Below, one piece after another: positions 3,625 through 55,764 of a stretch of DNA of 64,000 nt. Source of the DNA: Clostridium sp. BJN0013. Its GTDB lineage: Bacteria; Bacillota; Clostridia; Clostridiales; Clostridiaceae. Numbering within the stretch: the first letter of the stretch is position 1; each line of letters begins with the position of its first letter. The stretch covers positions 3,472,001-3,536,000 of the forward strand of contig NZ_CP162495.1 in NCBI RefSeq assembly GCF_040939125.1, read 5' to 3'. The notes under the pieces are model-generated. The model had not been told where the DNA came from, made no database searches, and saw only the letters and a list, made by a program, of their open reading frames with translations. The position numbers were made by a program, and so were the translations under genes.

Positions 3625-3822
3625 TCAAATAATTCTTAGATTCAGATAGAGTTTGCTTATAAGAAATGCTTTTCTCCACCTGAACCTTATTAACAGTATT
3701 CTTAGTGTCTTTAGCACTTAGAATACGTTATCCTTTAGGGGAAGAACTTATCCAGAGACGTAGTGCTCATCCCCACTTTGAAAAAGATGAGGGTGATAGC
3801 CAGAATTGCCGCCTTAGGATAA
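3625..3822 (+). repeat. Dispersed structured repeat, copy 1 (full length)
   Basis: Full-length member of a repeat of about 200 bp seen throughout this window. It begins TCAAATAATTCTTAGATTC and ends near CTTAGGATAA. Three hairpins are visible: one with arms around 3636-3651 and 3675-3690, one at about 3695-3727 (TATTCTTAGTG / GCACTTAGAATA), and a decayed third near 3770-3800. It lies between hemA and the GT39 gene. Unlike most copies, it is oriented opposite to the flanking genes. Confidence 0.85.
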
Positions 3823-3908
3823 AATTATTTTTATTATAACATTATTGTAAAGATAATCAACTAAAATTAATAAGTAAAATTTTTTATCTCAAGATAATTA
3901 TCAAGAGA

Positions 3909-6140
3909 TTATTTCACACTACCTTTTAGATCATACAATACCTGTGAAGTCATACCATCAAATCCACCAGGACTATTATTTCTCATGCTGTTACCCAGTT
4001 TATCATTTATATTACTGTACATATCATAGTAGTTTATACCTGCATTTTTACTATAATTATCTATTTTAGAATTTACATCTTCTTTATTACCAGATTCAGT
4101 AGAATCCTTCCACTGATTTTCTGACACTATCTTGCCATTTTTCTCTACCCAATTCATAATATCATCCATGGAACCTCTTCCCATTCCTCCTGTAAGTACA
4201 TATCTAACTTCCCCATTTTTAACCATAGCTTTAAATTTATCTAATGTAAGTATCTTATCAGAGCCTGTAAAACCACCTAATGCCATTATCCCCTTACCAG
4301 TTTGTAGTATTATATCTTGGGCAGAAGTTGCACTGGAAACTACAAGAATATATTTCTCATCTGTAATATTACTCTCAAGGAATTTTATAAGTTTCTTATT
4401 ATTACTGCCCTCGGAACCTCTTCCTCCCATCATAAAATTACCAGATTCACTATTTGATAGAAGCTCCAATCCTGCTGAAGGCATAGTACCGTTCATCTTA
4501 TGATTTATAGTAGCCGCAGAGCCAATAGCAGGTGTTATTAAAATTCCTATAAAAGCAATGGCTGTCAATACCTTTCCAAACTTTATATTCCCCGGCTGCT
4601 CCAAGTTACCTTTCTTTATTACCTTATATATTATAAGCAATACAGATGCTGCAAAACACAGTATTAAAGAAGATACAATGACAGTTTTAATTGCAGAGGA
4701 TATATTGCTGTAATAAGATAACATTAAAAGCTGTACTAATCCATTTGCAATAAGAGATGCAGGTAGTAAAAGCCACCTTATATTTATACTCTTTTCCTTA
4801 TAAAGTTTCCACATAGAGGCAAGTCCTATTCCTGACAAAGCTGCAATAGGCGGAGCCATCATGGTTAAATAGTATTGATGGAATAGTCCTTTGGTATAGC
4901 TGAAATATAAAAATTCAGGAACAAGCCACAAAACCCATAACATTAAATCTAGTTTTTTTCTATTGTTAAAAGGAAACTTCAGCTTTTCCACTATTGCTGC
5001 TGCAATAAATCCAAATACAGCCAGAGGTAAAAACCACACTATCTGATCTGATAAAATATTTTTAGAGAACAATCTGGTAATGCCTGATTCTGTCTGACCT
5101 CCAAAGTTTCCTGCCATTCCTCCTTGACCGCCTCTTCCTCCAGGCATCTGACCTTCTGGTAATTTCATTTCCTCTGGAATGTTGTCATTTCCACCTAGAA
5201 AATTAGGCATACCTCTATTTTTACTGCCCTCTGCAGTCTTTTGTCTATTAGCCCAATTCCCATTTTGAGCATTTCCATTGCCTCTTTGATTTTGTGTACC
5301 GTATATATTACTATTTCTAAATTCTCCCGGTGCTTGTCTTCCTCCCATACCACTATTATTAAATCTCTCAAGTCCATTATGTCCTAATATAAGTTCCATA
5401 ACAGTATTATTTGTACTACTTCCTACATAAGGTCTATACTGTGCCGGCACAAAATCTACTATTACTGCCCAAGACAGAGATACTACCACAAGTACAACTG
5501 TACCTAAAGCTAGATGTTTTATTCTCTTTTTTACAGGTATTGCTGATGAAATGAGATAAATTACATATGCTGCCGGTATAATCATATAGGCTTGGAGCAT
5601 CTTTATATTAAAGCCTATGCCTATAAAAACCAAGCTTATTATAAGATATTTAAATCTACCCTTTTCTGCAGCCTTAGAGAGGAATACACAAGCAATAAGC
5701 AGTGTCATTACCAAAAGATTATCTATGGTATTATTTCTACTGGCAGCCACAAAAACAGGGGTAATTGCAAGGCAAAGAGCTGAAATAGTTCCAGCTGTAT
5801 TTCCAAAGGACTTTTTCACCATACAATATACAAGCCCAACAGATATAACTCCTGCAAGAGCCTGTGGAAACAATATACTCCATCCACTGAATCCAAATAT
5901 TTTAGCTGATATAGTTTGTATCCAAAAACCTAAAGGAGGTTTATCAATAGATACAAATCCTGAGGGATCAAAAGATACAAAGAAAAAATTTTTAAAATTT
6001 ACAAGCATGCTCTTTACACCAGCAGCGTAATATTCATTTCCATAACCTTCTATACTTAAATTTGTAAAATTCAATATGGCAGATAAAATTAAAACCACTG
6101 CTATTGGAAATTTTTCTTTTTTTAATTTTATGCTTTTCAC
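3909..6140 (-). CDS. GT39/GT-C family membrane glycosyltransferase (YkcB-like)
   Basis: About 743 residues. The N-terminal half has multiple membrane segments typical of the ArnT/PMT GT-C fold, which transfers sugars from polyprenyl-phosphate carriers outside the membrane. Seen: an acidic loop after the first TM (NLSIEGYGNEYYAAG, FDPSGFVSIDKPPLGFW), eight or more further hydrophobic segments to about residue 545, and a soluble C-terminal domain (about 575-743). A low-complexity Gly/Asn/Gln/Met-rich insertion fills about residues 255-355. An ATG at 6155 overlaps the gtrA stop (TAATG), but GGGAGGA lies before the GTG at 6140, which is preferred. Third gene of a GT2-GtrA-GT39 operon. The sugar and acceptor are unknown. 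Confidence 0.8.
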   Translation of the reverse strand: MKSIKLKKEKFPIAVVLILSAILNFTNLSIEGYGNEYYAAGVKSMLVNFKNFFFVSFDPSGFVSIDKPPLGFWIQTISAKIFGFSGWSILFPQALAGVISVGLVYCMVKKSFGNTAGTISALCLAITPVFVAASRNNTIDNLLVMTLLIACVFLSKAAEKGRFKYLIISLVFIGIGFNIKMLQAYMIIPAAYVIYLISSAIPVKKRIKHLALGTVVLVVVSLSWAVIVDFVPAQYRPYVGSSTNNTVMELILGHNGLERFNNSGMGGRQAPGEFRNSNIYGTQNQRGNGNAQNGNWANRQKTAEGSKNRGMPNFLGGNDNIPEEMKLPEGQMPGGRGGQGGMAGNFGGQTESGITRLFSKNILSDQIVWFLPLAVFGFIAAAIVEKLKFPFNNRKKLDLMLWVLWLVPEFLYFSYTKGLFHQYYLTMMAPPIAALSGIGLASMWKLYKEKSINIRWLLLPASLIANGLVQLLMLSYYSNISSAIKTVIVSSLILCFAASVLLIIYKVIKKGNLEQPGNIKFGKVLTAIAFIGILITPAIGSAATINHKMNGTMPSAGLELLSNSESGNFMMGGRGSEGSNNKKLIKFLESNITDEKYILVVSSATSAQDIILQTGKGIMALGGFTGSDKILTLDKFKAMVKNGEVRYVLTGGMGRGSMDDIMNWVEKNGKIVSENQWKDSTESGNKEDVNSKIDNYSKNAGINYYDMYSNINDKLGNSMRNNSPGGFDGMTSQVLYDLKGSVK

Positions 6141-6154
6141 ACATCTTCCTCCCA

Positions 6155-6610
6155 TTAACTGAACACCCAGAATTTATATAATGAAAAATTTATAACTTGA
6201 GCTATTAAAGTAACCATTACTTTGGATATATAAACATTTATACTAAAAGTATTTACTAAGAATTTCATACACAATACTGTAGTTACAAGAGAACAAATAT
6301 TAACTACAATAAATTGAATCAATTCACGATATACTTTCTTGTTAGAGGTTTCACTTTCAAATGTCCATTTTTTATTCAATATAAAACTATTTATTATTCC
6401 AAAACTATAGCCTAATACCTGACTTAAAGTATAATATATACCAAATAAACTTTCACATATAGTAAATACGCAAAAATCTACCAGAGTATTTATTACTCCT
6501 GTAGCAGAGAAGCGACTTAGGCATTTAAGTTTACCATTAAAAATACGATTAAATATAGAATACTTTGCTTTAGTTAACTGAGTCATGATTTTTATCAACC
6601 TTTCTATCAT
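6155..6610 (-). CDS. GtrA/GtcA family membrane protein
   Basis: About 151 residues with four predicted membrane helices (FSATGVINTLVDFCVFTICE, LGYSFGIINSFILNKKWTF, IQFIVVNICSLVTTVLCM, VMVTLIAQVINFSLYKFWVF). The NSFILNKKWTF stretch is the GtrA family signature. GtrA proteins are proposed to flip polyprenyl-phosphate-linked sugars across the membrane. It overlaps the upstream GT2 gene and its TAA overlaps the next ORF. ATG at 6586 is an alternative start; neither has a strong ribosome site. Confidence 0.85.
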   Translation of the reverse strand: MIERLIKIMTQLTKAKYSIFNRIFNGKLKCLSRFSATGVINTLVDFCVFTICESLFGIYYTLSQVLGYSFGIINSFILNKKWTFESETSNKKVYRELIQFIVVNICSLVTTVLCMKFLVNTFSINVYISKVMVTLIAQVINFSLYKFWVFS

Positions 6611-7538: not shown

Positions 7539-7812
7539 TTAATTCACCTCATATATAGTTTAATATAATTTTTATATTAAAACCTTAAAAAACACTTAAA
7601 AACACCATTAATAAATGTAAACTAACTTTGAACATATAGTATATAATCCCATAATTTTACTTAAACATGTATTCAATGTTGTTTATATTGAGAATTTATC
7701 GTATATTGTTAATATATAATATATAGTATTGTTACTAAAAATTTTCAAAGATTTAAAATTTACCAATTATAATTTTTATGTAGATATACCTTATCATAAG
7801 GAGTGAATTACT

Positions 7813-8490: not shown

Positions 8491-8493
8491 ATT

Positions 8494-9756: not shown

Positions 9757-9757
9757 T

Positions 9758-9957
9758 TTATCCGAACGCTGGAATTGACTAATACTCCCATTTTCTTCAA
9801 AATGGGAGATAAGCACTGCTATACACCTGGATAGGTTCTTCCCCTAAAGGATAACGTATTCTAAGTGCTAAAGACACTAAGAATACTGTTAATAAGGTTC
9901 AGATGAAGAAAAGTATTTCTCATAAGCAAGCTTCACCTGAACCTAAGAATCACTTGA
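9758..9957 (-). repeat. Dispersed structured repeat, copy 2 (full length)
   Basis: Full-length copy read on the minus strand from 9957 to 9758. The first bases (TCAAGTGATTCTTAGGTTC) overlap the last codons and TAG stop of the M20 peptidase gene. Hairpins: GGTTCAGGTGAAG with CTTCATCTGAACC, GTATTCTTAGTG with CACTTAGAATAC, and CTCCCATTTT with AAAATGGGAG. The end reads TCCAGCGTTCGGATAA. Confidence 0.9.
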
Positions 9958-11151
9958 TTTCAATTTAGAAAGTAATTTTAAAGCTGCATTGGACATAACT
10001 TCAACTCCATATAGCAATGCCAATTCATCTATATCATATTTAGGATGATGTTGAGGATAAACAATCCCTTTTTTAGGATTCCCTATACCTATAAAAATAA
10101 AACATCCTGGTACTTTTTGCAAGTAATAAGAGAAATCTTCACTACTCATACACGGCTTTACTTCATGAGCTCCTTCTCCCATTATTTCTTTTCCCGCCTC
10201 AAGTACAATATCTGTAATTTTAGAATCATTGTTAAGCACATAGGTACATGAACTTCTTTCAAGCCTGCAGTGCGCTCCTGCCATATCACATATGTGTTCT
10301 ACAATTTTTTTAATATGCAGAAGTACTTCTTTTCGCACATCTTCATCAAGGGATCTAATGGTTCCTTTTAATATAGCTTTTCCTGATATAGCATTATAAA
10401 TATGTCCCGACTGGAATACCCCCACTGATACTACAGCCTGTTTCATAGGATCTACATCTCTTCCTACAATTGTATTTAAGGCAACAACTATTTGAGAAGC
10501 TGTTAATATTGAATCTATAGTTTGATGGGGCATAGAAGCATGCCCTGCTTTTCCCTCAATAACTATTACAAATTCATCACTGGCAGCCATTACAGGTCCC
10601 TTTGATATTCCTACGGTTCCAATTCCAAGGGGCTGCCATAGATGAGCTCCTATAATGGCCTCCACACCTTCTAAGCCTCCATCCGCTATAATGGCTGCGG
10701 CTCCTGAACCATCGGCGACCTCTTCTTCACTAGGCTGAAATATAAATCTTAAAGTACCTTCAATTCTATGGCGAATATCATACAAAACTTTTATAACACC
10801 TATGAGCATAGCAGTGTGTCCATCATGACCACAAGCATGACATACACCTTTATTTTTAGATTTATAATCTTTGTTAATTTCATCATCTATAGCTAAAGCA
10901 TCCATATCCGCACGAATTGCCACTATTTTTCCAGGCTTTTCACCCTTTAGTTCCGCAATAACACCAGTTCCAGCTGCCTTTCTAATATTTAAATCCAAAC
11001 CATTCAATACCTCAATTATTTTCTTTTGAGTGTTAAACTCCTTCTTGCTAACTTCAGGATATGTGTGAAAATATCTTCTTAATTTTACTACCTCAGAATA
11101 GTATCTATTGGCCAGATGCTTTATTTCTTCAACTTCGCACAACTGTTCCAT
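9943..11151 (-). CDS. M20 family amidohydrolase/carboxypeptidase
   Basis: About 402 residues, of the M20D group (hippurate, IAA-amino acid, or N-acyl-amino acid hydrolases). Metal-ligand and catalytic motifs: AIRADMDALAID, HACGHDGHTAMLIG, FIFQPSEEEVADGSGA, GAHLWQPLGIGTVG, and MSSEDFSYY near the C-terminus. The lid/dimerisation domain is intact (EGKAGHASMPHQTIDSI). ATG at 11151 is chosen because GGGGAGGG lies 8 bases upstream; an earlier ATG (11169) overlaps that site. It follows carB by 41 bp and is probably co-transcribed. Its last residues (SSDS-stop) lie within a dispersed repeat. The exact substrate cannot be read from sequence. Confidence 0.85.
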   Translation of the reverse strand: MEQLCEVEEIKHLANRYYSEVVKLRRYFHTYPEVSKKEFNTQKKIIEVLNGLDLNIRKAAGTGVIAELKGEKPGKIVAIRADMDALAIDDEINKDYKSKNKGVCHACGHDGHTAMLIGVIKVLYDIRHRIEGTLRFIFQPSEEEVADGSGAAAIIADGGLEGVEAIIGAHLWQPLGIGTVGISKGPVMAASDEFVIVIEGKAGHASMPHQTIDSILTASQIVVALNTIVGRDVDPMKQAVVSVGVFQSGHIYNAISGKAILKGTIRSLDEDVRKEVLLHIKKIVEHICDMAGAHCRLERSSCTYVLNNDSKITDIVLEAGKEIMGEGAHEVKPCMSSEDFSYYLQKVPGCFIFIGIGNPKKGIVYPQHHPKYDIDELALLYGVEVMSNAALKLLSKLKSSDS

Positions 11152-11192: not shown

Positions 11193-14100
11193 CTATTTAT
11201 ACTCTGAAAATACTTCCAGTGCATTATCACTTATATCTTTCTTTTTTACATAAGTCATAGCTCTAAAAGTATCCAGTGATGTTATAACTTCTATGTTCCT
11301 CTCTACAGCCAATCTCCTTATATGAAATCCATCTCGCGTAGAATCATTTCCCTTGGTAGGTGTATTTATTACTAAATCCACTTCTTCATTTTTTATAACA
11401 TCTATTATATTTGGACTCTCCTCTTTCATTTTTCTAATCTTTTTTACTTCAATTCCATTATCACGTAAGAGTTTTGCTGTATTTTCCGTAGCTATAAATT
11501 TAATACCTAGTTTATGTATTTCTCTTGCTATAGGCAAAAACTCCTGTTTATCATGATCTCCTATAGTTGCAAGTATTACTCCATTTTTCATATTAAAAAC
11601 CATATCTGCAGCCAAAAGTCCTTTATAAAGTGCACCTTCAAGGTTACTAGATACTCCTAAAACCTCCCCTGTGGATCTCATTTCAGGTCCCAAGGAAACT
11701 TCTACATTAGGAAGTTTTTCTGTAGAAAACACTGGAACCTTTACTGCTACTATATTAGGTTCTCTGCATATTCCAATTCCATATCCAATATCTTTTAATT
11801 TTTCCCCCAGCATTACCCTGGTAGCAATATCAACTATAGGTACATTACTTACCTTGCTTATATAAGGAACAGTCCTTGAAGCCCTAGGATTTACTTCTAT
11901 AACATAAAGATTGCTTTCATATTCTATAAACTGAATATTTATCATACCTTTTATTCCTATACCTAAGGATAATTTCACAGTATACTCTAAAACTTTTTCT
12001 CTTATATCATCATTTACGTTTTGAGCAGGATACATAGTTATGCTATCTCCAGAGTGTACACCTGCCCTCTCTAAATGTTCCATGATTCCAGGTATAAGTA
12101 CATCCTCACCGTCACATATGGCATCTACTTCTATTTCCCTGCCCATTAAATATTTATCTATTAATATAGGATTTTTCTTATCTTTATTAAAAGCCACAGA
12201 AAGATAATATGCAAGTTCTTTTTCCGTGTAAGTTATTTCCATGCCTTGTCCTCCAAGTACATAAGAAGGTCTTACAAGCACAGGAAATCCCAGCTTTCTT
12301 CCTTCTTCAAGTCCCTCGTCTATAGTCCATACTCCTTTTCCTTTAGGTCTTTTAATGTTTAATTTTTCAAGAAGATCATCAAATTTTTCCCGATCTTCTG
12401 CCATATCTATCTGGTCCGCAGTGGTACCTAATGTAACTATATTTTTTTCTTTTAAGAATTCTGCCAGTTTTATAGCAGTTTCTCCCCCAAATTGCAATAT
12501 AACACCGTAGGGCTTTTCCTTATCCAATATACTTAGAACATCTTCTTCCGTTATAGGTTCAAAATACAGTTTATCTGAAATATCAAAATCTGTGCTTACA
12601 GTTTCCGGGTTATTATTTATTATTATAGTCTCTATACCGAGCTTTCTAAGTATTTTTATGCAGTGTACGGAAGCATAATCAAATTCTATACCCTGTCCTA
12701 TTCTGATAGGCCCCGATCCTATCACTATAACTTTTTTATTGTTTGAAACTTCCACCTCATCATATTCTTCGTAGGTAGAATAATAATAAGGAGAAAGTGC
12801 TTCAAATTCCCCTGCACAGGTATCTACCATTTTATAAGAGGGATTTATATTCCATATTTTTCTGAGTCTATAAACCTCATCTGGTGAAACCTTAAGCATG
12901 TCTGCTATTCCCTTATCAGAGAATCCTTTTTTCTTCAGCAGGACAAACCATTCTTTATTAATATCACTTATACTGCTGTTTTTCAATTTTTCCTCTTCAT
13001 CTATAATCCCTTTAAATTTATTTATAAAAAATTTATCTATACCGGTGATTTCAGATAATTTTTCAATTTTGTACTTTCGCCTTAATAGTTCTGACAGGGC
13101 AAATATTCTTTCGTCATCTGGATATGCTATTCTATTTTTGAGTTCGTCCATACTTAAATCTTTAAACTTTTTGTAATCTAAAGAATAAGTTCCTATTTCA
13201 AGAGATCTTATTCCCTTTAAAAATGCAGCTTCAAAATTACTTCCTATGGCCATTATTTCCCCTGTAGCCATCATTTTGGTTCCAAGTTCCCTTTCAGCTC
13301 CTTGAAATTTATCAAAAGGCCATTTAGGAATTTTTATTACCACATAATCCAGAGAAGGCTCAAAACAAGCATAGGTTTTCTGGGTAACTGCATTTTTTAT
13401 TTCATCCAAACCATAACCAAGAGCTATTTTAGCTGCCACTTTTGCAATAGGATATCCTGTGGCTTTTGATGCAAGAGCTGATGAACGGCTAACCCTAGGA
13501 TTTATCTCTATAACTACATATTCAAAGGAATGCGGATTCAAGGCCAGCTGAACATTACATCCACCTTCTATTTCAACTTCATTTATTATGTCAATAGATG
13601 CAGTTCTAAGCATTTGATATTCTTTATCTGATAAAGTCTGACTTGGTGCTACAACTATACTGTCCCCTGTATGAATCCCCACAGGATCTATATTTTCCAT
13701 ATTACATACTGTTATGCAATTCCCAAAACTATCTCTCATAACTTCATATTCTATTTCTTTCCACCCTTTTATGCTCTTTTCAAGTAATACCTGGCCTATT
13801 GAACTAAGTTCTAATCCAGATTCCAGTATGCTTTTAAGCTCCTCTTCATTGTCTGCTATTCCCCCTCCTGTACCTCCAAGGGTATAGGCAGGTCTTACTA
13901 TAACAGGATAACCTATTTTTTCTGCAAATCTTATGCCACTTTCCATATCTGTAACTATATCACTTTCTACAACTGGTTGATTTATTTTATTCATGGTATC
14001 TCTAAAAAGTTCTCTATCCTCACCTTTTTTTATAGACTTTATAGAAGTACCTATTATTTTTACATTATATTTTTCAAGTATTTTATTATCGTATAATTCA

Positions 14101-14399
14101 ACAGTAAGATTTAGTGCTGTCTGCCCGCCCATTCCTGCTAAAAGGCTATCCGGTCTTTCCTTTTTTATAACTTTTTCTATGAACTCTACTGTAAGCGGTT
14201 CTATATAGACTTTATCTGCCACTTCCCTATCTGTCATTATAGTGGCAGGATTACTATTTACAAGTACAACTTCCACTCCTTCCTCCCGTAGTGATTCACA
14301 GGCCTGAGTTCCTGAATAATCAAATTCTGCTGCCTGTCCTATTATTATAGGTCCTGAACCTATTACCAAAACTTTTTTAATATTTTTATTTAAAGGCAT
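11193..14399 (-). CDS. carB: Carbamoyl-phosphate synthase, large subunit
   Basis: About 1068 residues, the expected full length. It makes carbamoyl phosphate from bicarbonate, ATP and ammonia for pyrimidine and arginine synthesis. Two homologous ATP-grasp halves are visible: [19 protein letters not shown] with [20 protein letters not shown], and [20 protein letters not shown] with [19 protein letters not shown]-terminal MGS-like allosteric domain follows ([34 protein letters not shown]). Start ATG 14399 has GGGAG 9 bases upstream. Lies 49 bp behind carA. Confidence 0.97.
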
Positions 14400-14447
14400 A
14401 TAATCTTGCTCCCTTCTTTTCAATTCACAATGTACAATTTATAGTTT

Positions 14448-17812: not shown

Positions 17813-17883
17813 TTAATAGAAACTTTTATATTATTTCCTATCAATGTTTTTATTTTCTATTCTATTTACATCAAATCATCCTA

Positions 17884-17934
17884 GGCTTAGTTAGAGTTTG
17901 CACATAAATAATACTTTTCATTTAAACCTTAGAG
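17884..17934 (+). repeat. Decayed fragment of the dispersed repeat
   Basis: Resembles only the first hairpin of the repeat family (TTAGTTAGAGTTTGC, then CTTTTCATTTAAACCTTA), with several mismatches. It lies 3' of the permease in the same orientation as that gene, like most other copies. Confidence 0.45.
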
Positions 17935-30495: not shown

Positions 30496-30702
30496 GGCAT
30501 CACCATCTCTTTACAATACAAAAATACAAACAAAATTTTAAAATCAAATCGTAACCTGTCTCTTTCAAAAATTGATATGAGCAGAATATAAGTTATTAAC
30601 ACTTATGGTGCAGCTCAAAATGATACTACCCAAAGTTATTTTAGCACACATTAAATTTCTATTCAAGTACTTATATTTTGTTTAATTTCACGGTATAGTA
30701 TG

Positions 30703-30736
30703 TTTAAAGTCCAGATAGAGAAAAGCATTTCTTATA
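30703..30736 (-). repeat. Left half of a dispersed repeat split by an insertion
   Basis: The sequence AAAGTCCAGATAGAG followed by AAAAGCATTTCTTATA matches one arm and loop of the repeat's first hairpin. It stops at TTATA (30732-30736), directly against the inserted element. The matching other arm resumes with TTATA at 35971. Confidence 0.8.
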
Positions 30737-30967
30737 GGGGTAATACCCCATAGCCATCAAGCTAAGCCATATTAGATAATAATGGACTCTCATTAGGGAC
30801 TATATTTTACTAATATTGTTTGACTTCTATGAGTACCGATAATATATTATTAAGTATACATTAGTATTTAAACAATTTTATGGCATAACAAAAAAAGCCA
30901 TGTATGGGGTGGGAAAAATTACAATTATATTCAGTTAATTTACGAAGATAATTTAAACTATGCCGAT

Positions 30968-32383
30968 TTATGCTACGATTTTAGTCCTCTCTAATATTCG
31001 TTTACAACGAATTCCTAAAATATCAAAAACAGTTTTCTTGTCTTTCCTATGAGCTTTCACACCATTTTTAACTACATTTTCAAACACTAATTTTATAAGT
31101 TCAAAATATAGTCTTTCAATATATCCATAGACTATCTGAGAAACTTTCATTTCACTGACTTCAAGTCCTTTGTTTTCTACAGCCAGAGTCCTCATTTTAA
31201 ACATCACAGTAGAACTCAAGAGCAGCAAAATGAGCTTCTCATAAAGCTGACATTGAAACCGTTCTATTTTAACTGGCCTTACAATCTGTACATGAAATAT
31301 AGATTTCCATGTTTTAAATATTATTTCCACCTGCCAGCGTAATGAATAAAACTCATGAACTTGTTCTGTACTTAAAACTTGTCCATCAATATTCATTATA
31401 TAAATAGATATACCCAACAATCCAATTGTTGTAGCACTCTTTTGAATACCTTTCTTTTTAGAATTTTTCTCGCATTTTTCTGTTCTTTTTTTCAATTGTT
31501 CTTTTGTTAGTTTATATAAAATAAGTCTGGTTTTTAACTTCTTTTCCTTGCTTATATAGGCATCCTTAATTTCATAGCGTTCCTCATCTTCCATCTGTTT
31601 CATAATGTCAGAAATATAAATTCTTTTAAAGAGGCCTGATTTTTTAGGGGTGCCATTCTTATAATACTCCATATCATTATTTTCTATATATACTGCTATA
31701 TTAGGTTTGAGTCTTGATATATAAAAGGCTTTTTTCTTCTCCATATCCAAAAAATCTTCAAAGCTAAAATATCCAGATCTCTTAATATAAGCTCCCCTGC
31801 TTTGATGCTATCTCTTACCTTGCTTCCAAAAGTATTATCATTTTCTGAACCAGCGCCCTACTTCTAAATTAATAAAATTTCCTGATCTTAATTCATATTC
31901 AAGTCGTATTTTTACCCCTGAAGGTTGAGAGCACCCACCAGAACCCGGATAAGTATCTTTATATCTTTCTGGTACTTGGAAAGCAGTAGAATCAAGTATT
32001 CTTATCCGTTTAAAATGCTTATCCCATGCACTTTTTACACAAGTATTTTTTATTATTGTCTGACGTAATAGTTTTTCAAAAATCTTCTTTAAAAACTCCA
32101 CACATGCTCTATTTAAACGTTGATCTAATGCCTGACTAGAAATAACTACACCTATTTTGGCACTAAGTTTTGTACATAAAATGACGGGTGTATTATGAGC
32201 AACCTCTACATCCATAAAACAGCATAGACAAACGAATTGCCATGCTTCAATTTTGCCTTTTCTTTTCACAAAACCTGTTTCTCTTGCTATTTCTTCAATT
32301 TCCTCTTTTGAAAAACATTCTTTGAGCTCATCTCCTAAATGTTTTATATTTTCATCCAATGTTAATTTCTCTTCTTCTATCAT
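30968..32383 (-). pseudogene. IS4-family (IS231-like) transposase, two frameshifts
   Basis: The N-terminal part (32383-31838) includes RIRILDSTAFQVPERY (first catalytic Asp) and GSGGCSQPSGVKIRLEYEL. The C-terminal part (31750-30968) has the YREK signature in FYSLRWQVEIIFKTWKS. The two parts are in the same frame, but between them an extra base near 31857 and a missing base near 31765 put a TGA in the reading frame. Translating between the two lesions restores AGSENDNTFGSKVRDSIKAG, typical of this family. No right-hand inverted repeat matching the left end was found beyond 32383. Confidence 0.85.
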
Positions 32384-32768
32384 TTGTAAGTTTCTCCCTT
32401 ATGATATAATATTTATAAGAAAATAAAAGATTTTTAGTTAGCCACCTTCCAGGTTTTATTTCTCACAAAGAGGTCATTGCGATTAATTGACAACAGAAGA
32501 GGTGGCACAATGAGTGATGATATTGTTATTACATCTATAGTACGGGTACAGCCGACATACATGTAAAAATAGGCCACATACTGGAATTAATCTCCACAAT
32601 GTTGCCTATTTTTATTTCATTAGTAACTGGTGAACATTATTAGAATAATGAGAAATTAGCATAAATGAGTAAATCTTTTATAAATGCTTAAAACATTATT
32701 TGCTTTAAAATTGATTATCTATTCTACTTATGCTATAGTGAATGTATAATAGTTTAAGGAGTGATTTC
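32384..32768. other. Intergenic region between transposase and PadR gene, with hairpins
   Basis: Contains GCCACC/GGTGGC arms (32441 and 32511) bracketing about 65 nt, and a terminator-like stem TAAAAATAGGC / GCCTATTTTTA (32564-32574 and 32604-32614) followed by TTTC. These could insulate the cargo genes from transposase transcription. No gene is seen. Confidence 0.5.
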
Positions 32769-33344
32769 ATGTCATTATCATACACCCTATTAGGTTTGCT
32801 AAATTATGCTTCTATGACTGGTTATGATTTGAAAAAGATTTTCGATGATTCTATTAACTTTTTTTGGTCGGCTCAAACAAGTCAAATTTATCGTGAATTA
32901 AAAACATTAGAGGAAAAAGGTTACATAGTTTCTGTAGTAAAACCAAGTGATAAGGGTCCATCTAAGCGTATATATAGCATTACTGAACAAGGGTTATCTT
33001 ACCTGAAAGAATGGCTTACTAATGTCCCTGATGAAATAAACGAGGATAACCGTAATGCTTTTTTATCGAGAGTTTTTTTATCCTCAAATGTAGGTTTTGA
33101 AGAATTATTTTTTCAGCTTCAAGAAAGATTAAAAAAGTATAAAAGAGATTATGAAAGCCTTAAATCAGTTGAAAATAAACTTGGAGAATATCTACAAATG
33201 TTTGATAGAAAGGATGAAGTTTATTATTGGAAAATAGCACTTAGTAGAGGTTTTCATGATGTTGAATCTCACATTCATTGGGCTGAAGAAAGTTTAGATT
33301 ATATTCGAGAAATAATTAATAATAAGAAAAGTGAGGATAGTTAA
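32769..33344 (+). CDS. PadR family transcriptional regulator
   Basis: About 191 residues. The N-terminal winged helix has LSYTLLGLLNYASMTGYDLK, the recognition region TSQIYRELKTLEEKGYI and the wing KGPSKRIYSITEQG. The C-terminal Vir-type helical domain (about 90-190) makes it a long PadR (AphA-like). Start 32769 has AGGAG 7 bases upstream. It precedes the 532-residue cargo gene by 5 bp and probably controls it. Both lie inside the inserted element. Confidence 0.87.
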   Translation: MSLSYTLLGLLNYASMTGYDLKKIFDDSINFFWSAQTSQIYRELKTLEEKGYIVSVVKPSDKGPSKRIYSITEQGLSYLKEWLTNVPDEINEDNRNAFLSRVFLSSNVGFEELFFQLQERLKKYKRDYESLKSVENKLGEYLQMFDRKDEVYYWKIALSRGFHDVESHIHWAEESLDYIREIINNKKSEDS

Positions 33345-33349
33345 ATATA

Positions 33350-34948
33350 ATGAAAAAAAAACGTTTAATTACAATAATATCTATACTTGTAATGATAATT
33401 TTAATTTGTTTAGGAAGTTTTATTTATAAAAGTGTTACGTCAATTTCAGAAATATTTCGTTTAAACAGCAAACTTCAAGCTGAAGGCTACTATATGGGGC
33501 AATTTGAATTTAAAATGCTTGGATGTGCTTATTATCTCGACAAGGGACATTACATAACAGCATTTTCTAAATTGAATCAAATACATAAGCAGTTAGAGAC
33601 TAAAGAAGGTTTAATAAAAGTTCCGAAATTCACTAGCAAAAAAGAGGAATTTGAGTTTTATATTGGTCTACAAAATCCTAAAACGGGGGCGTTTATGGAT
33701 AACTCTTACCCACTTTTTACATATATTGGCTCAACTTTAAACATGATTAAGCATCTTGAATCTTTATCAGATGATACAGGTCAGCCTATAAAACTTAAAT
33801 ATCCAATTAAATTTTTGGATGAAATCAATTCACCTGAAAAGCTAAAGCCCTTTTTAGATGACTTATCTACAATTGGGTTTATAGCATCTAAACTTCCAAG
33901 AACACCTTATGTTGAAATAGCTGAACTATGCTATTATAACGACTTTGAACATACTAATTTATACACTTTTTCTCCTGAGTGGAAACAAGCACTCTTACAA
34001 TGGCTATACAATAATCAAGATAGTAAAACAGGCTTTTGGGGTCCAAGATTAAGGAGCAACGGAAAGCTTTTAGATTCTGGGGACTTAGGATCTACTTTCC
34101 ATATTATCAAGTTGTTTGTAAATGAAAATGGAGACAACATACATAGTGAGTTTCCTTTACGCTATAATAATGAGATAATAACAACAGCCATTAATAAACT
34201 TTCTCAGCCTGCACCTAAAGATGCAAATTTGAGTGAACTACATGACTGGAACTTAACAAGGTATCAAGGAATAAGCTTGATTACAAATTATTTGTGGCAA
34301 GGCATTTCCACTGAAAATAAAAATAAATCTAAGGAATTCATGGAGAATATCGTAAGAAATAAATTCGAAAAATATTATATTGAAAGTGAAGGAGGTTTCA
34401 GTTACTATCCTGGATTAGCAGAGGCTACTTTAGATGGTACTGGAGATGCATTATCTTTACTTAGAATTGTTGGTGCATTATCTCTGAACAGGCAAAAGCA
34501 ATTATGGACAACTCCAACGAATAACATCATAGACTTAGGCGTGTACAAAATTTCAGAGTTAAAGGAAAATGACTTTACTTCAATTAAAAAATTCCAAGAC
34601 ATAAATTCATTACGTTTATATAGTAGTGAACCAGGTCCAGATGATTATTTATCTAATGTTGTTGGTATTATTTATCCTAAAAAGACATCAGTCCTTGATA
34701 TTATGGACTTGTTGCTAAGAGTAACTCAATGGGTTAGTACAACATCACAGAGCATGGGAAACTGGACAACAAAAGAACAGATTATACAAGACCTTTCTAC
34801 TGTAAAAATATCATCTGTTCAAGTTTTAAATAGAAATAATTTTCTTAAACAAGCAAATGGACTGCTAAATAATAACGGGAAATTGATCGTAATTGGATTT
34901 GATATTCTCCAAGTACCAAAATACAAAATAACATTTTATATTAAATAA
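33350..34948 (+). CDS. Membrane-anchored alpha-toroid-like protein of unknown function
   Basis: 532 residues. Lys-rich N-terminus plus one TM helix (LITIISILVMIILICLGSFI) without a clear cleavage or lipobox site. The rest is exterior. Repeated motifs of the QNPKTGAFMD, QDSKTGFWGP and EGGFSYYPGLAEATLDGTGD type recur about every 120-200 residues, resembling the QW/prenyltransferase-cyclase alpha-toroid repeats of squalene-cyclase-like folds. The catalytic DxDD of cyclases is not evident, so enzymatic activity is doubtful. A metal- or glycan-binding or structural role is possible. No specific family was recognised. Cargo of the element, behind PadR. Confidence 0.7.
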   Translation: MKKKRLITIISILVMIILICLGSFIYKSVTSISEIFRLNSKLQAEGYYMGQFEFKMLGCAYYLDKGHYITAFSKLNQIHKQLETKEGLIKVPKFTSKKEEFEFYIGLQNPKTGAFMDNSYPLFTYIGSTLNMIKHLESLSDDTGQPIKLKYPIKFLDEINSPEKLKPFLDDLSTIGFIASKLPRTPYVEIAELCYYNDFEHTNLYTFSPEWKQALLQWLYNNQDSKTGFWGPRLRSNGKLLDSGDLGSTFHIIKLFVNENGDNIHSEFPLRYNNEIITTAINKLSQPAPKDANLSELHDWNLTRYQGISLITNYLWQGISTENKNKSKEFMENIVRNKFEKYYIESEGGFSYYPGLAEATLDGTGDALSLLRIVGALSLNRQKQLWTTPTNNIIDLGVYKISELKENDFTSIKKFQDINSLRLYSSEPGPDDYLSNVVGIIYPKKTSVLDIMDLLLRVTQWVSTTSQSMGNWTTKEQIIQDLSTVKISSVQVLNRNNFLKQANGLLNNNGKLIVIGFDILQVPKYKITFYIK

Positions 34949-35025
34949 ACATTTAATATCTCTTAATAATTTTAGTAAAAAATTAAATGAAGTTTTATAC
35001 CATATAAATTTAATAGCCATTACTT

Positions 35026-35470
35026 AAATTAACCCGTTGAGCTAAAAGATGAATTTTCATAACCAGAATATATAATCCATAATAAAATAGTATAGTATTC
35101 CTAAAAATTCTAGAATATATATTTATATATTTAAGAAAATTTAATCAAATATCAATTCTTTGATTTTTGATATATTTGGATTAATATTTAGTGTTTTATT
35201 GATAAAATAGCACAGATTGTGAACTAAAATTTTATTTGTTATTCTGCTTATTAATCCCCAAATAGATTTGGCAAGTACTCTTTGTATACTTAGATGAATG
35301 GATAATTGAGAAAAAGTTGTTTCAATTCTCCGTCTTGCTTTAAATATTAATTGCCTGAATCCTTTTGGAAATTGATTTGTATCTTTCTTTCTCTTTATTG
35401 TAACAAGGTTGATATTTCTGTCAGATTGTAAATGTTGCTAGTCAATTTAACTAGCACAACGGGTTAATTT
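35026..35470 (-). mobile_element. Internally deleted IS982-type element
   Basis: Inverted ends TTAACCCGTTGAGCTA (35029-35044) and TAGCACAACGGGTTAA (35452-35467) match at 15 of 16 positions. About 445 bp remain, enclosing only the C-terminal part of the transposase. The remnant could still be moved by a transposase supplied in trans. Confidence 0.72.
35141..35424 (-). pseudogene. IS982-type DDE transposase, C-terminal remnant
   Basis: The minus-strand frame ending at the TAA at 35141 reads FKARRRIETTFSQLSIHLSI then QRVLAKSIWGLISRITNKIL and HNLCYFINKTL. This is the conserved C-terminal block of IS982 transposases, including the catalytic Glu in RRRIETTFSQL. About 95 residues remain; the N-terminal two thirds and first two catalytic acids are missing. 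Confidence 0.75.
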
Positions 35471-35671
35471 AATTATGAAATATCTATACCATTTTTTAAT
35501 ATAGCATTTTTCATACTAATACCTTTTGTATTTGAAGGTCAACCAAGGTATAACTTTCCTGTATTATTTTTACTTGCAATATGTACAACTAATTATATAG
35601 AAAAAATATTTAATTTTATAAAAAACAATCAACTTATAACAAATTTAATTGGAAGATTCCGTTTAAATTGA
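35470..35671 (+). pseudogene. Fragment of a multispanning membrane protein
   Basis: A plus-strand frame running to a TGA at 35671 reads IPFFNIAFFILIPFVFEGQP then RYNFPVLFLLAICTTNYIEK. It resembles the last membrane segments of a GT-C type glycosyltransferase (FExQPRY-type motif). It starts directly at the right end of the IS982 remnant with no start codon or ribosome site, so it is a truncated remnant. Confidence 0.5.
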
Positions 35672-35970
35672 TATACTCAGCAGAAACTTCATGGGGTAAT
35701 GGAAGGGTATAACTGATGTGTACTGCAAAGTAAATGAAATTAATTTGTATAGTAAAAGCTATAAGGGATGTAGCCAACATTTCCGACATATCTATACTTC
35801 ACCTTATGAAAGCAGCTTACTTAGCCAACTTCAACGTTACTAATATGTACTCAATGTAGTGTTAGAAATGCCTCCAAGATTTGAAGTTGGAGGCTAACTT
35901 TTATCATAAATTTTTCCCTGTAAATACATAACTACTTTGCCCCTGGTTACAGAGCTGCTGGTATTACCCC
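35672..35970. other. Right end of the inserted element
   Basis: No coding frame. A hairpin GCCTCCA / TGGAGGC (35870-35876 and 35888-35894) followed by TAACTTTT looks like a plus-strand terminator. The last 11 bases are the right inverted repeat. Confidence 0.5.
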
Positions 35971-36012
35971 TTATAAGCAAACTCCACCTGAACTTTAGAA
36001 TCACTTGATAAA
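35971..36012 (-). repeat. Right half of the split dispersed repeat
   Basis: Starts with the duplicated TTATA and continues AGCAAACTCCACCTGAAC to ATCACTTGAT, the standard beginning of the repeat (read on the minus strand). It lies a few bases past the stop of the FlxA-like gene, the usual position for this family. Confidence 0.82.
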
Positions 36013-36503: not shown

Positions 36504-36668
36504 TTTATCAGAATTCTATCTTTACTAACATCCTCAGCTTCTTCGAAGTGGGAATGAGTAATGCTACGCCCTTTATAGATTCTCTAATTTTATAAGTTCT
36601 TTAAGGTTTAAATGGAAAAAACATTCCCTATGAGTAAATTCTATCTGAACCTATGAATTACTTGATTT
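36504..36668 (-). repeat. Dispersed structured repeat, decayed copy
   Basis: Read on the minus strand from TCAAGTAATTCATAGGTTC (36668) to TTATC-like sequence near 36504. It keeps the first hairpin region (GATAGAATTTACTCATAGGG) and a third-hairpin core (CTCATTCCCACTTCGAAGAA), with the middle eroded. It provides the last codons (SSNS) and the TAG stop of the DUF134 gene. Confidence 0.75.
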
Positions 36669-37130: not shown

Positions 37131-37234
37131 TTATCCGAACGCTAGAATTAGCTAACACCCCTAATTTCTTCAAAGATGGGGAATAAGCACTGCTATGCGC
37201 CTGGATAAGTTCTTCTAAGATTCACTTGATAAAT
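37131..37234 (-). repeat. Dispersed structured repeat, internally deleted copy
   Basis: Begins (minus strand) with TCAAGTGAATCTTAGAAG, then jumps straight to AACTTATCCAGGCGCATAGC and runs to the AGCGTTCGGATAA end. The first two hairpins are missing. It supplies the SSES-stop of the acyl-CoA dehydrogenase fusion gene. Confidence 0.85.
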
Positions 37235-45629: not shown

Positions 45630-45778
45630 TCAAGTAATTTTTAAATTCAGATGGAGTTTCCTATAAAAAATACTTTTCTCCATCTGAATCTTAAAAAAAC
45701 TTATCCAGGGACACAACAGTGCTTATACCTCACTTTGGAGAAAATAGAGAATTAGTTACTTCTGGCCTTCGGATAAAG
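45630..45778 (+). repeat. Dispersed structured repeat, near full-length copy
   Basis: Begins TCAAGTAATTTTTAAATTC. The first hairpin is intact (TTCAGATGGAG / CTCCATCTGAA), the second is missing, the third is eroded, and it ends CTTCGGATAAAG. It lies between the leader terminator and the ABC importer. Confidence 0.82.
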
Positions 45779-48560: not shown

Positions 48561-48564
48561 AATT

Positions 48565-48615
48565 AAATGACTCTTAGGTTTAAATGGACTTTGTTCATAA
48601 GCACTGTTTTTTCCA
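48565..48615 (+). repeat. Partial copy of the dispersed repeat (first hairpin only)
   Basis: ATGACTCTTAGGTTTAAATG, then GACTTTGTTCATAAGCACTG and TTTTTTCCATT match the start and first hairpin of the repeat with mismatches. It lies directly after the importer terminator, in gene orientation. Confidence 0.55.
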
Positions 48616-49997: not shown

Positions 49998-50027
49998 AAG
50001 CTGCTAAAATTCAATTATTGGCAGCTT
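49998..50027 (+). terminator. Hairpin after the CBS-GGDEF gene
   Basis: AAGCTGC / GCAGCTT stem with a 16-nt A/T-rich loop, 12 bp after the stop. No clear U-run, so efficiency is uncertain. Confidence 0.5.
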
Positions 50028-50194
50028 CCAAAATTATATAGTATTTAATTTAAATTCACATGCAGGTCATAATGTTTAATATTACATCATCTGCTTCTTT
50101 TAATCCCTTTGTACCAAGTTCACATAAATTTTTTATGGTCTTTGTGCAATGATTTAATCATTCCTTCATACATAGCAACATTCCTTTTTTAATT

Positions 50195-50743: not shown

Positions 50744-51615
50744 TATAATCCTCCTCTGTATAGCGGAATAATGCTATAAAACTTAATTTAAATTAAAAAT
50801 ATATATCATTATTGATTTTACTTCATTTATAAAAAAATACAATTATATAAATGTTAATTTTCCCGAAACACTCTAATATAATACACAGGCTCATACCATC
50901 AGGTGTTAGCAATAATAGATTTCGAATAAAAAAAGATTGATAACCATGTATGTATAGGTTTATAATAATCTTATTATAAGAAGTAATTATAGCCCTAAAT
51001 ATAGAAAAGGGGGTGATAAAATATAATAGAAAAGATGTCATTTAACTCAAAAAATACTAAACACAACTTTTAATTTCATGTACTCTAAAGGTTTACGGTA
51101 ATGTATCTTTGAAAAGTATATTAGTAAAGATTAATATTTATCTTCCACTTTGGGAAAGGTGGAAGTGTTAGGTAATTGCAACCTTCAAATAAAAAGCTAA
51201 AACCCAATATTATTCTGAAGTACTGTCTAAATGATACTGGAAACTTTTATAGGTACTGTAATTCAGGTTGTAGTTGACCATGAAAAGTATCCTTTAATTC
51301 ATTAAATGCACTCATACTATATTTAAATGAAAACACTATATTAAATCGACAATTTATTAAGTAAGCTACAGTATAATTGGTAATACTTAAAATTGTTATG
51401 TTACAACTTTTTTAATCCAAGCATCTTAATTATTATTGCATAAATTAAAATATTTTATTTAAAATAAATAGGATTACTACTTCTGACTATTGCATTTTCA
51501 ATAGGATGGTTCTTAGAATTTATCCATAAAAGTACCCTACATTTAAAAATTATAAATTTTCTGTGAGAAAGGGATGAATTTAAGGAATAACTTAATTATA
51601 AGGAGGAACTTTTAT
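50744..51615. other. 870-bp region without a supported gene
   Basis: Between the HD gene and the radical SAM gene. It holds a decayed repeat fragment (51105-51205). A 72-codon minus-strand frame at 50823-51041 lacks a ribosome site and a plausible composition. Remaining sequence is AT-rich. No known riboswitch or tRNA was recognised. The last 60 bp contain the ribosome site (GGAGG) for the radical SAM gene. Confidence 0.5.
51105..51205 (+). repeat. Decayed fragment of the dispersed repeat (third hairpin)
   Basis: Retains the third hairpin with changed but paired arms (CTTCCACTTT / AAAGGTGGAAG) followed by GTGTTAGGTAATTGC, corresponding to GTATTAGCTAATTCC of the full repeats. The end is eroded. 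Confidence 0.6.
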
Positions 51616-53004: not shown

Positions 53005-53088
53005 ACATAATATTATAGAAAATAGGGTCTTGATATAATTTAACTTATTTTATCAAATTATTCATTTAAATGGATAAATATATTTTTT

Positions 53089-53820: not shown

Positions 53821-54053
53821 GAGCTTTTATATCTTTTCCTATAATATCCTCTGGGTGGATACTTTCTTTCGTCATAATGGTATCTTTCACCTGGACTATA
53901 AGAATAATATTTTTTATATCTTCTACGTGAATTAGAACATGAATCAAACATCCTTAATATACGGCTAAAGAACCCCTCCCTTTTATAGTACCTGCTTCCC
54001 TGGTGATTATTTGCATATTTTCTTTTTCGTGATGATCTTGAAAAAAAACCCAT
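53811..54053 (-). CDS. Small Arg/Tyr/Ser-rich basic protein
   Basis: 80 residues, very basic, with no recognised family. It is rich in Arg, Lys, Tyr and Ser (FFSRSSRKRKYANNHQGSRY, SNSRRRYKKYYSYSPGERYH, YDERKYPPRGYYRKRYKSSW) and contains two FFSR motifs. No signal peptide. ATG 54053 has GAGG 8 bases upstream. It resembles low-complexity RNA-binding or spore-coat-like peptides. The overlap with the kinase gene suggests co-translation and a phospho-regulated role. Confidence 0.7.
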   Translation of the reverse strand: MGFFSRSSRKRKYANNHQGSRYYKREGFFSRILRMFDSCSNSRRRYKKYYSYSPGERYHYDERKYPPRGYYRKRYKSSWS

Positions 54054-54062
54054 TATATACAC

Positions 54063-54344
54063 CTCTTTTTAGACTATTTTCAAATATACACTCAACTAAT
54101 TATCAATTAAAAACATTTTTAATATTTTCATAATATGATATTCTTTTATATATGTCAACATTCATAACAATAAGTTAAATCAAAGTTAATTGTTAATTAA
54201 TAAAGATAGATACCATTACTCATCATTCCCTTTAAAGAAACCGGTGATGTTAGATGATTACATCCTTGGGATAAAATAAAAGGAACCGGTAATAAAATAT
54301 GCATTTACTGCCCTCATTCTAATTCCTTTTATTGAACCATATAT
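54063..54344. other. Intergenic region with trpS terminator
   Basis: Upstream half is AT-rich and includes the promoter region for the small-protein/kinase pair. Two ACCGGT sites (54239 and 54285) are present. The terminator of trpS is at its right edge. No gene seen. Confidence 0.5.
54275..54333 (-). terminator. Terminator of trpS
   Basis: Minus-strand stem AATAAAAGGAA / TTCCTTTTATT with a 37-nt spacer loop, followed by TTATCC. Twelve bases past the trpS stop. Confidence 0.65.
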
Positions 54345-55355
54345 TTATTTTGATACAGGTATACATCCTATTTTCTTTTGCATCTTTCTCAATATTTTGC
54401 TAGATACATAGTATGCTTTTTCTGCTCCTCTTTTATATATATTCTCTAAATACTCTTTATCCTTAAGTAAATCATTTACTCTTTCTTGAAGAGGTTTAAG
54501 TTCATTTATTATAGACTCTGCAGTATCATTTTTAAACTGTGCATATCCTTTTCCTACATATTTTTTTTCTATTTCTTCATGAGTTATTCCAGTTATTGCA
54601 CTTAATATAGTTATGAGATTTTTTATTCCAGGCTGATCGTCACTATATCTTACTTTTCCAATACTATCCGTAACACATCTGTTAATCTTTTTTCTTATAA
54701 TTTCAGGACTATCCATAATTAGTATATAGCTGTTCGGATTATCCGAGGATTTAGACATTTTTTTTGTAGGATTTTGCAAGTCCATTATTTTTGCACCATC
54801 TTCTGGTATATATCCTTCTGGTATATTAAATGTAGGGCTATAAAGATTATTGAACCTTTCTGCTATATCCCTTGTGAGTTCAATATGCTGCATTTGATCC
54901 TTTCCCACAGGAACAAGATCTGTATTATAAAGCAATATATCTGCGGCCATCAACACAGGATAATTAAGAAGTCCTGCACGTACAGAATCTCCTCCTCCAG
55001 AGTTTTGCGATTTACTTTTATATTGGGTCATCCTTTCAAGTTCCCCTACATAAGTAAAACAATTCAAAATCCAAGCTGCCTCACTATGTGTTGGCACATG
55101 GGATTGAATAAATATTGTATTCTTATCCGGATTTATCCCTGCCGCCAAATATATAGCCAATACTTCAAGGGTTCTTCTCCTTAGATCTTTTGGTTCTTGT
55201 TTTACAGTTATTGCATGTAAATCCACTACACAAAAATAACAATCATATTCATCCTGAAGTTTTACCCAATTTTTTAAAGCTCCTAAATAGTTACCTATGG
55301 TTAAATTTCCTGAAGGCTGAATACCACTAAATATTACTTTTTTTTTCTCTTCCAT
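54345..55355 (-). CDS. trpS: Tryptophanyl-tRNA synthetase
   Basis: About 336 residues, class I bacterial type. HIGH-like motif in GIQPSGNLTIGNYLGALKNW, IFIQSHVPTHSEAAWILN, the VPVGKDQMQHIELTRDIAER region and KMSKS in TKKMSKSSDNPNSYI. Charges tRNA-Trp. ATG at 55355 is chosen as GGAGG lies 11 bases upstream; an ATG at 55373 overlaps that site. No T-box sequence is present in the leader, only a terminator hairpin. Confidence 0.96.
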   Translation of the reverse strand: MEEKKKVIFSGIQPSGNLTIGNYLGALKNWVKLQDEYDCYFCVVDLHAITVKQEPKDLRRRTLEVLAIYLAAGINPDKNTIFIQSHVPTHSEAAWILNCFTYVGELERMTQYKSKSQNSGGGDSVRAGLLNYPVLMAADILLYNTDLVPVGKDQMQHIELTRDIAERFNNLYSPTFNIPEGYIPEDGAKIMDLQNPTKKMSKSSDNPNSYILIMDSPEIIRKKINRCVTDSIGKVRYSDDQPGIKNLITILSAITGITHEEIEKKYVGKGYAQFKNDTAESIINELKPLQERVNDLLKDKEYLENIYKRGAEKAYYVSSKILRKMQKKIGCIPVSK

Positions 55356-55393
55356 AATTTTCGCTACCTCCATATTTCAACGTCTAATGTATG

Positions 55394-55422
55394 AAAAATC
55401 CCTATGATACATAATCATAGGG
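55394..55422 (-). terminator. Terminator/attenuator hairpin before trpS
   Basis: Minus-strand stem CCCTATGA / TCATAGGG with a 7-nt loop, followed by ATTTTT, about 40 bp before the trpS start. It may end transcription from the glucan-synthase gene or attenuate trpS. Confidence 0.7.
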
Positions 55423-55565
55423 TATTATTGGCACTGTATCACCTAAATCCCAAAAGATTTAAATTTCACTAAATATCATCATATATTGTACTATAAACAT
55501 TTAAAAATTGCTATGTTAATTTCTACCATATAATATTATATAATATATACTCCTAATTATTAGAT

Positions 55566-55764
55566 TTATCCGAACGCTGAAATTAGCTAATACTCCCATC
55601 TCTTTCAAATGGAGATAAAGCACTGCTACGCGCCTGGATAAGTTCTTCCCCTAAGGGATAATGTATTCTAAGTGCAAAGACACTAAGAATACTGTTAATA
55701 AGGTTTAGACGGAGAAAAGCATTTCTTATAATCAAACTCCATCTAAACCTTAGAATCACTTAAT
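55566..55764 (-). repeat. Dispersed structured repeat, full-length copy
   Basis: Read on the minus strand from TTAAGTGATTCTAAGGTTTA to CAGCGTTCGGATAA. All three hairpins are intact; the first uses AAGGTTTAGA / TCTAAACCTT, a paired change relative to copy 2. It lies about 40 bp past the glucan-synthase gene stop. Confidence 0.9.

Follow-up and report, generated by a model that had tools for sequence, protein, structure and literature searches.

A structured repeat family of Clostridiaceae inserted with one polarity at the pentamer ATAAA

Introduction

The BCR elements of the Bacillus cereus group are described as intergenic, foldable repeats of 100-400 bp, and bcr1 (BCR group A) as 147-167 bp long, with up to 130 copies (passages in PMC6542083, PMC3446304 and PMC2267715). 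Passages of one of these papers tie the mobility of bcr1 to a TTTAT motif and place bcr1 on some plasmids (PMC6542083); another reports bcr1-3 in transcripts (PMC3446304). The stem-loop families Clop-1 and Clot-1, 93 and 74 bp in length, are listed for two clostridia (PMC2267715). Here we report on a family of structured repeats found in a stretch of 64,000 nucleotides of Clostridium sp. BJN0013 (contig NZ_CP162495.1, positions 3,472,001 to 3,536,000; the window), whose complete genome of 4.10 Mb is designated G000. As far as the published descriptions can be compared, bcr1 is the closest parallel; it shares TTTAT, but resides in other hosts. Judged by titles and abstract openings, no paper of the surveyed literature describes the family. 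The C. autoethanogenum genome paper mentions many repeats, and its examined passages do not describe the family (PMC4022347).

Other systems show partial similarity. Like REP/REPIN sequences with their RAYT proteins, the family has a high copy number, hairpins and, as judged by eye, GTAG words in the fold. GTAG repeats and RAYTs are treated in PMC3733652, whose abstract gives REP/REPIN lengths of 20-40 bp, whereas the repeats described here measure 135-250 bp, have two different end domains and a fixed target and show a weak association with RAYT genes. Group A IStrons, which have IS200/IS605 palindromes, insert at TTGAT, ATTAT or TTTAT according to passages of PMC4227781, and TTTAT is thus a target of both. 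Yet IStrons carry a group I intron, and Rfam gave no group I match in the clostridial repeat. A miniature inverted-repeat transposable element of the DDE type was rejected, because the repeats have no terminal inverted repeats and type A (see below) makes no target duplication.

Results and Discussion

Filled and empty sites

The repeats come in size forms of about 135-150, 180-200 and 250 bp, which are assembled from hairpin modules. We describe them on the strand on which the target reads ATAAA (reference strand); on the complement it reads TTTAT. In type A the reference strand carries the left end ATCAAGTGATTCTTAGG, hairpin 1, an optional 51-nt module, GAAGAACTTATCCAGG, a right-hand domain of stacked helices and CGG. 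Type B follows the same plan in other letters; it was found beside type A in three genomes (G006, G007 and G009) as well as in several other genera. The element has two conserved stem domains, with hairpins close to either end.

Synteny was compared within two sets of close relatives, G000/G003/G004 and G006/G007/G009. By eye we identified 21 clean sites at which one genome has the element and another lacks it. The empty allele consists of the left flank, about five bases and the right flank, and the pentamer was exactly ATAAA in 17 of the 21 cases; the others were ATAAG, AGTTA, ATAGA and ACAAA. The filled allele reads left flank, ATCAA(G) and so forth, then CGG, ATAAA and right flank in type A; in type B the element starts with ATAAACAG and the right side is the same. 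The left pentamer of type A at the clean sites was ATCAA (one ATTAA, one ATAAA), as opposed to ATAAA in most empty alleles. The empty allele has one ATAAA and the left pentamer is not a copy of it, so that insertion of type A neither duplicates the target nor loses any of it. Not counted as clean were remnant, rearranged, truncated or diverged sites, i.e. window 3624 (remnant in relatives), window 45630 (diverged), one further event (event 4) of the G006/G007/G009 set, J7:911, J7:64498, R9:75780 and R9:119769.

In 110 copies of the own genome the right pentamer was ATAAA in 96 and the left pentamer ATCAA in 95, and the flanks beyond were merely AT-rich. Insertion thus has one polarity, directly 5' of ATAAA, which is 3' of TTTAT on the complement. 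For type B, whose left end is ATAAA, a duplication and an element-borne copy look alike in sequence at most sites. One site of this type with the target ACAAA (filled in G006 and G007, empty in G009) had ACAAA on the right and ATAAA on the left, which points to an element-borne left pentamer of type B in two species. The insertion rule is clean enough for a direct test of the mechanism, and TTTAT is common to this family and bcr1 of Bacillus.

The initial annotation had offered three explanations of the repeats, a non-autonomous mobile element, a 3' untranslated region (UTR) RNA or a new class of non-coding RNA. The filled and empty sites between close relatives bear out the first: the repeats almost certainly belong to a mobile element that is non-autonomous and non-coding and inserts with one polarity at ATAAA.

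In the G006/G007/G009 set G006 and G009 shared a filling twice, G006 and G007 once and G007 and G009 once, so that all three pairings occurred. Such conflicting pairings fit precise loss or lineage sorting. They are also what precise excision by a recombinase would produce, and site-specific recombination is mentioned as a mechanism for BCR elements in passages of PMC6542083. A host or resident recombinase acting on a 5-bp core, with ATCAA and ATAAA as donor and target cores, is nevertheless quite unlikely in our view: no core dyad was seen, the left pentamer is constant instead of being that of earlier targets, and a conserved single-strand fold would be needless.

The site of K3:28490 holds a full copy in G003 and the short footprint ATCAAGT in G004, as expected from imprecise loss. 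Separately, an insertion of about 150 bp outside the family profile was seen in one species only (G007:C4 120125-120278 as compared with G009:C66 71824); it seems to hold inverted repeats.

Fold and covariation

Two full copies folded far more stably than shuffled versions of them (z -4.5 and -5.3), as did the complement of one of them (z -5.5). Covariation was formally tested for the right-hand domain in an alignment of 42 rows, other genera included, with the structure taken from one of the rows. The alignment left out L076, L079, L087, L104, L191, L298, L317, L321 and the duplicates L138 and L140, along with own-genome and other-genus rows in which the script recognised no right-hand domain. 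In 997 cells standard pairs amounted to 89.6%, compared with 80.9% in shuffled and 31-53% in slid controls. Doubly changed cells numbered 88 versus 30.2 ± 3.7 after shuffling and 6-21 after sliding, and the covariation score was 0.271 versus 0.111 and at most 0.095, respectively. Thus covariation of the right-hand domain is strong. Two other measures told less: there were 9 pairs changed on both sides, compared with 8.8 after shuffling (304 of 500 shuffles were as high), and 31 further pair types, compared with 26.4 (14 of 500). Three recurring hairpins with co-varying arms had been proposed from the window; covariation held for the right-hand domain, and the middle hairpin showed little of it within the own genome. 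The middle hairpin is the 51-nt module, which is nearly invariant in the own genome.

One side of the internal stretch ACTTATCC pairs with AGT of the left end, the other with GGATA, which is made up of the right end and the target. In this fold the termini are adjacent, and the closing helix owes three or four of its bases to the target. Eight pairs join the internal stretch to the ends; they were Watson-Crick in 87-107 of 110 own-genome copies, taken from the 150 listed, which is conservation and not covariation. We saw no change of this guide-like stretch alongside a change of the target.

The conserved fold may be that of a new class of non-coding RNA, yet a conserved single-stranded DNA would look identical. 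Together with the covariation and the intergenic placement, the strong fold of the two copies would also suit an RNA acting in cis (a terminator, a 3' UTR or a riboswitch-like element) that had spread as a passenger. With a crude caller of open reading frames (ORFs), gene context was counted for 30 copies of the own genome, each belonging to the form of about 200 bp. None was inside an ORF, and the upstream gene ran in the same direction in 17 and in the opposite direction in 13 cases, i.e. there was no preference of orientation to genes. In addition, presence differs between orthologous loci, and no U run follows the hairpins. We consider a cis-acting RNA highly improbable, and the 3' UTR explanation is not supported.

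Hairpin modules

The 51-nt module was present in 48 and absent from 62 of the 110 own-genome copies. It was 97.0% identical among carriers, compared with 80.3% for the rest of the same copies; outside the module carriers were hardly more similar to each other (80.3%) than to non-carriers (79.8%). For 31 of the 48 carriers the nearest relative was a carrier as well. As to a single gain of the module, a tree of the shared part shows at least 31 changes, but a tree with one clade of carriers was not rejected (p_AU 0.179). The modules may have been spread by gene conversion or may be kept by selection. An independent mobile unit was rejected, because all 46 places with up to 3 mismatches were inside copies of the element (compared by eye).

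By eye, the module (AACAG..TTCTTAG-hairpin-CTTAGAA..CGTTATCC) looks like the left-end domain repeated in shortened form. A second hairpin module of about 50 nt is located in the apical loop of the right-hand domain of two copies of about 250 bp (L061 and L062; by eye). In J7 (G007:C4) the copy at reversed position 64498 has two tandem modules of about 50 nt (GATTTGG..CCAAATC) in the loop of the right-hand hairpin.

The folding strand and reverse transcription

The reference strand had the lower raw folding energy in 127 (RNA parameters) and 116 (DNA parameters) of 147 copies. This strand is richer in G and T. The mean energy differences in four sets were -7.75, -7.95, -9.46 and -8.39 kcal/mol, those of dinucleotide shuffles -4.90, -6.87, -6.81 and -8.25 kcal/mol. 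Since the shuffles reproduce most of the difference, we attribute most of it to base composition and draw no preference for either strand from it. The z-score against dinucleotide shuffles favoured the reference strand in 85 of 147 copies (43/62, 24/48, 13/26 and 5/11). Some single pairs varied as G-U far more often than as A-C on the reference strand (for example 74 vs 2 and 41 vs 2 of 110), which may reflect inherited states.

The strand is of interest for retro-mobility, in which the reference strand would be transcribed, folded and copied by a reverse transcriptase in trans. In such target-primed reverse transcription a nicked TTTAT-3'OH would anneal to AUAAA at or next to the 3' end of the RNA. 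A TTTAT primer would suit the invariant 3' side, and the expected product of insertion is the observed one. Matches to RVT_1 were present in 10 of the 13 genomes of the genus, including G000, G003, G004 and G007, and the lower raw energy in 127/147 copies, mostly due to base composition, is on the same side. On the other hand, the z-score was better in 85/147 only, and no RVT_1 match was found in G005, G006 and G010. G005 and G006 bear repeats, while G011 has RVT_1 and no repeats; on this ground a reverse transcriptase was rejected as the mobiliser. Copies made by target-primed synthesis are usually truncated at the 5' end. The 40 best own-genome BLAST matches, a set biased to complete copies, all reached the 5' end, and no A tail was seen. 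Retro-mobility appears rather improbable to us. We give still less credit to a related proposal, a retro-element like a short interspersed nuclear element (SINE), i.e. a structured RNA of the reference strand of about 135-250 nt that was enlarged by nested hairpin modules. The internal guide of this RNA would pair with its own two ends and with the AUAAA target, and an enzyme yet to be named would copy the RNA into TTTAT sites.

Apart from the multi-copy reverse transcriptases and unlike them, an ORF for a reverse transcriptase of 484-485 amino acids lies about 8-9 kb from the end of three chromosome records (G000:C1:4092343, G003:C2:3956100 and G004:C1:4445828).

Search for the mobilising enzyme

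The insertion rule is that of the single-strand elements of the IS200/IS605 family, with TTTAT on the complement. Like non-autonomous, PATE-like members of that family, the repeats insert 3' of a fixed T-rich pentamer, in type A without duplication, and have subterminal hairpins at both ends and a guide-like internal pairing to the ends. We lean slightly to the view that a folded single strand is what moves, as it does in IS200/IS605 elements. The internal ACTTATCC brings both termini together in the fold, where the target completes the closing helix, and a short internal guide would recognise the cleavage sites as in IS200/IS605 elements. An enzyme acting in trans would then cut the folded single strand and rejoin it. 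In apparent contrast to the layout of IS608, the guide-like segment is located on the inner side of the end domain, where it closes the stem. Membership in IS200/IS605 stays putative, as no transposase gene found carries the ends of the element.

A number of observations count against such a mechanism. A scan of all 15 Y1 matches in the own genome and of 30 of the 59 in relatives found no Y1 gene within element ends. Copies were near Y1 genes at two places only, L237 (G005) and L043/L044 (G000), and none of the 45 loci was enclosed. The IS200 of the own genome, present in nine near-identical copies and truncated or broken ones, was rejected as donor of the ends, since its ends are different (11 of 15 loci aligned). 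Y1 was present in 17 of 20 repeat-bearing relatives, with no match at E ≤ 0.001 in G004, G006 and G107, and G004 and G006 are rich in repeats. G004, which lacks Y1, has at least one copy (K4:50455) that is absent from G003 and G000. At a type B site filled in G007 and G009 and empty in G006 the empty allele was ATAAA and the right side of the filled allele ACAAA, the reverse of the ACAAA site described above, and at three further sites the filled right side was ATAAA and the empty allele was not. In the IS200/IS605 manner the hairpins would be expected to act on the strand with the target 5' of the element, the complement; raw energy favoured the other strand in 127 of 147 copies, and z-scores did so in 85 of 147 only.

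The orientation of the copies relative to the replication fork was mixed as well. In G000 the direction predicted for the IS200/IS605 mechanism was seen in 93 of 150 copies (Fisher p 0.005), with the origin set at base 1 and the terminus at 2.05 Mb, near which the GC skew of the fetched loci flips its sign. Hand tallies gave 18/35 in G004, 12/21 in G003 and 3/14 in G006, the last running the opposite way. A replication-strand bias was thus dropped as a general feature, being unrepeated in G003, G004 and G006.

Mobilisation of the rolling-circle (IS91/Y2-like) or RAYT type, with the target 3' of the element on the processed strand, would agree with the polarity of element followed by target. 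Y2 had four matches in G000, and RAYT-like Y1 proteins of 181-330 amino acids are encoded in many repeat-bearing genomes. Y2 matches were confined to G000 and G001 of the 13 genomes, while 9 of the 13 have at least 20 scored copies, and Y2 was rejected on that account. RAYT-like proteins, searched with query rows drawn from repeat-bearing genomes, were detected in 100 of 206 genomes, i.e. 42 of 72 with and 58 of 134 without repeats (p 0.04, kinship ignored). A stricter cut that was chosen afterwards gave 17/72 and 10/134. G000, G003, G004 and G006 had no RAYT-like gene. Given this weak association RAYT-like Y1 was not retained as the mobiliser, and we regard the whole type of mobilisation as unlikely.

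In G006, with 119 scored copies, there was no match to Y1, Y2 or RVT_1 at E ≤ 0.001. In view of this repeat-rich genome the mobiliser may be an enzyme that is not yet recognised, or it may have been lost since in some lineages.

Distribution among genomes

A covariance model built from 30 copies found the family in the host genome and in related Clostridium, the searches that the initial annotation had called for. G000 had at least 150 scored places, all with E < 4e-8. Within the genus the model matched 10 of 13 genomes at E ≤ 1e-4: G001 had a single scored match, the other nine had 20-150, and G010-G012 gave none. Across the Clostridiaceae, under stricter filters and with scoring limited to 12 places in each genome, the family was present in 72 of 206 genomes, which represent 19 of 46 genera. 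An exact pattern scan of named genomes yielded 92 stretches, all titled Clostridium or Clostridiaceae, with C. carboxidivorans, C. drakei, C. ljungdahlii ERI-2, C. ragsdalei, C. muellerianum, C. luticellarii, C. uliginosum and others as hosts.

A blastn search of 72,556 plasmid records with one copy of each type gave no match (E ≤ 0.01), in contrast to bcr1 with its reported plasmid copies. Phages had no match with a type A copy and viral contigs none to two exact patterns. The initial annotation had named a match to an Rfam family as a refutation of its proposal. At the gathering score Rfam gave no match for the repeat and only an unrelated pan motif in the window; eight other loci gave only a purine riboswitch beside a copy, and one copy searched at E up to 10 gave sub-threshold matches only. 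A family without Rfam match extends over a good third of the Clostridiaceae genomes surveyed and reaches 20 or more scored copies in nine of the 13 genomes of the genus. Beside one copy in another genus Rfam recognised a purine riboswitch (L088:1863-1960, about 180 bp from the repeat).

Copies in the window

The window was searched with an nhmmer profile built from 150 copies, the full copies of the window included; an earlier profile had been built from three of these full copies, whose scores are not independent. There were 13 matches at E ≤ 0.01, 12 forward ones (Table 1) and an antisense shadow of hairpin 1 at 3636-3688. The best match in the reversed window and 10 dinucleotide shuffles had E 0.13. 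All ten places named for the dispersed family in the initial annotation were matched.

Table 1. Copies and remnants of the repeat family in the window
Feature	Positions	Strand	Profile match (E)	Remark
Full copy, about 200 bp, type A	3624-3823	+	4e-55	51-nt module 3690-3740
Full copy, about 200 bp, type A	9757-9958	-	1e-62	module 9842-9892
Decayed left domain	17879-17931	+	2e-4	
Split copy, other side (hairpin 1, 3' arm)	30701-30738	-	0.002	
Left end of transposon-split copy	35965-36009	-	8e-9	
Decayed full-length copy, 163 bp	36504-36666	-	2e-20	
Right-hand domain of truncated copy	37131-37218	-	1e-20	at 3' end of acyl-CoA dehydrogenase/ETF gene
Full copy, about 150 bp, without module	45630-45777	+	3e-26	place diverged in relatives
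Decayed left domain	48564-48615	+	1e-4	
Decayed right domain	51138-51192	+	2e-5	hairpin CTTCCACTTT/AAAGGTGGAAG
Possible decayed right domain, weak	54211-54275	+	0.009	absent from initial annotation
Full copy, about 200 bp	55565-55764	-	8e-55	module 55649-55698

At the place of the first copy G003 and G004 have a GGATAAA-like remnant only. The second site is empty in both, with a single ATAAA (TTTAT on the + strand). The site of the decayed 163-bp copy is empty in G003 (GTAAA) and G004 (ATAAA), and so is that of the last full copy (ATAAG in G003, ATAA in G004).

One copy is split into two parts because a transposon of about 5.2 kb inserted in the loop of its hairpin 1; by eye, the transposon has the inverted ends GGGGTAATACC and GGTATTACCCC and a duplication of TTATA. 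This transposon (30738-35965) codes for a PadR regulator, a 532-amino-acid protein that matches no Pfam family, and a DDE_Tnp_1 transposase in two pieces, one of which scores under the curated cut-off. It is absent from G003 and G004. The pan motif (RF01749) is located at 30552-30632 on the minus strand, between the split repeat and the minus-strand genes to its left, presumably the pan operon. Finally, the long ORF 11193-14423 contains a diverged direct repeat of 70 nt (80% identity; 12675-12744 and 14316-14385) that looks like an internal gene duplication.

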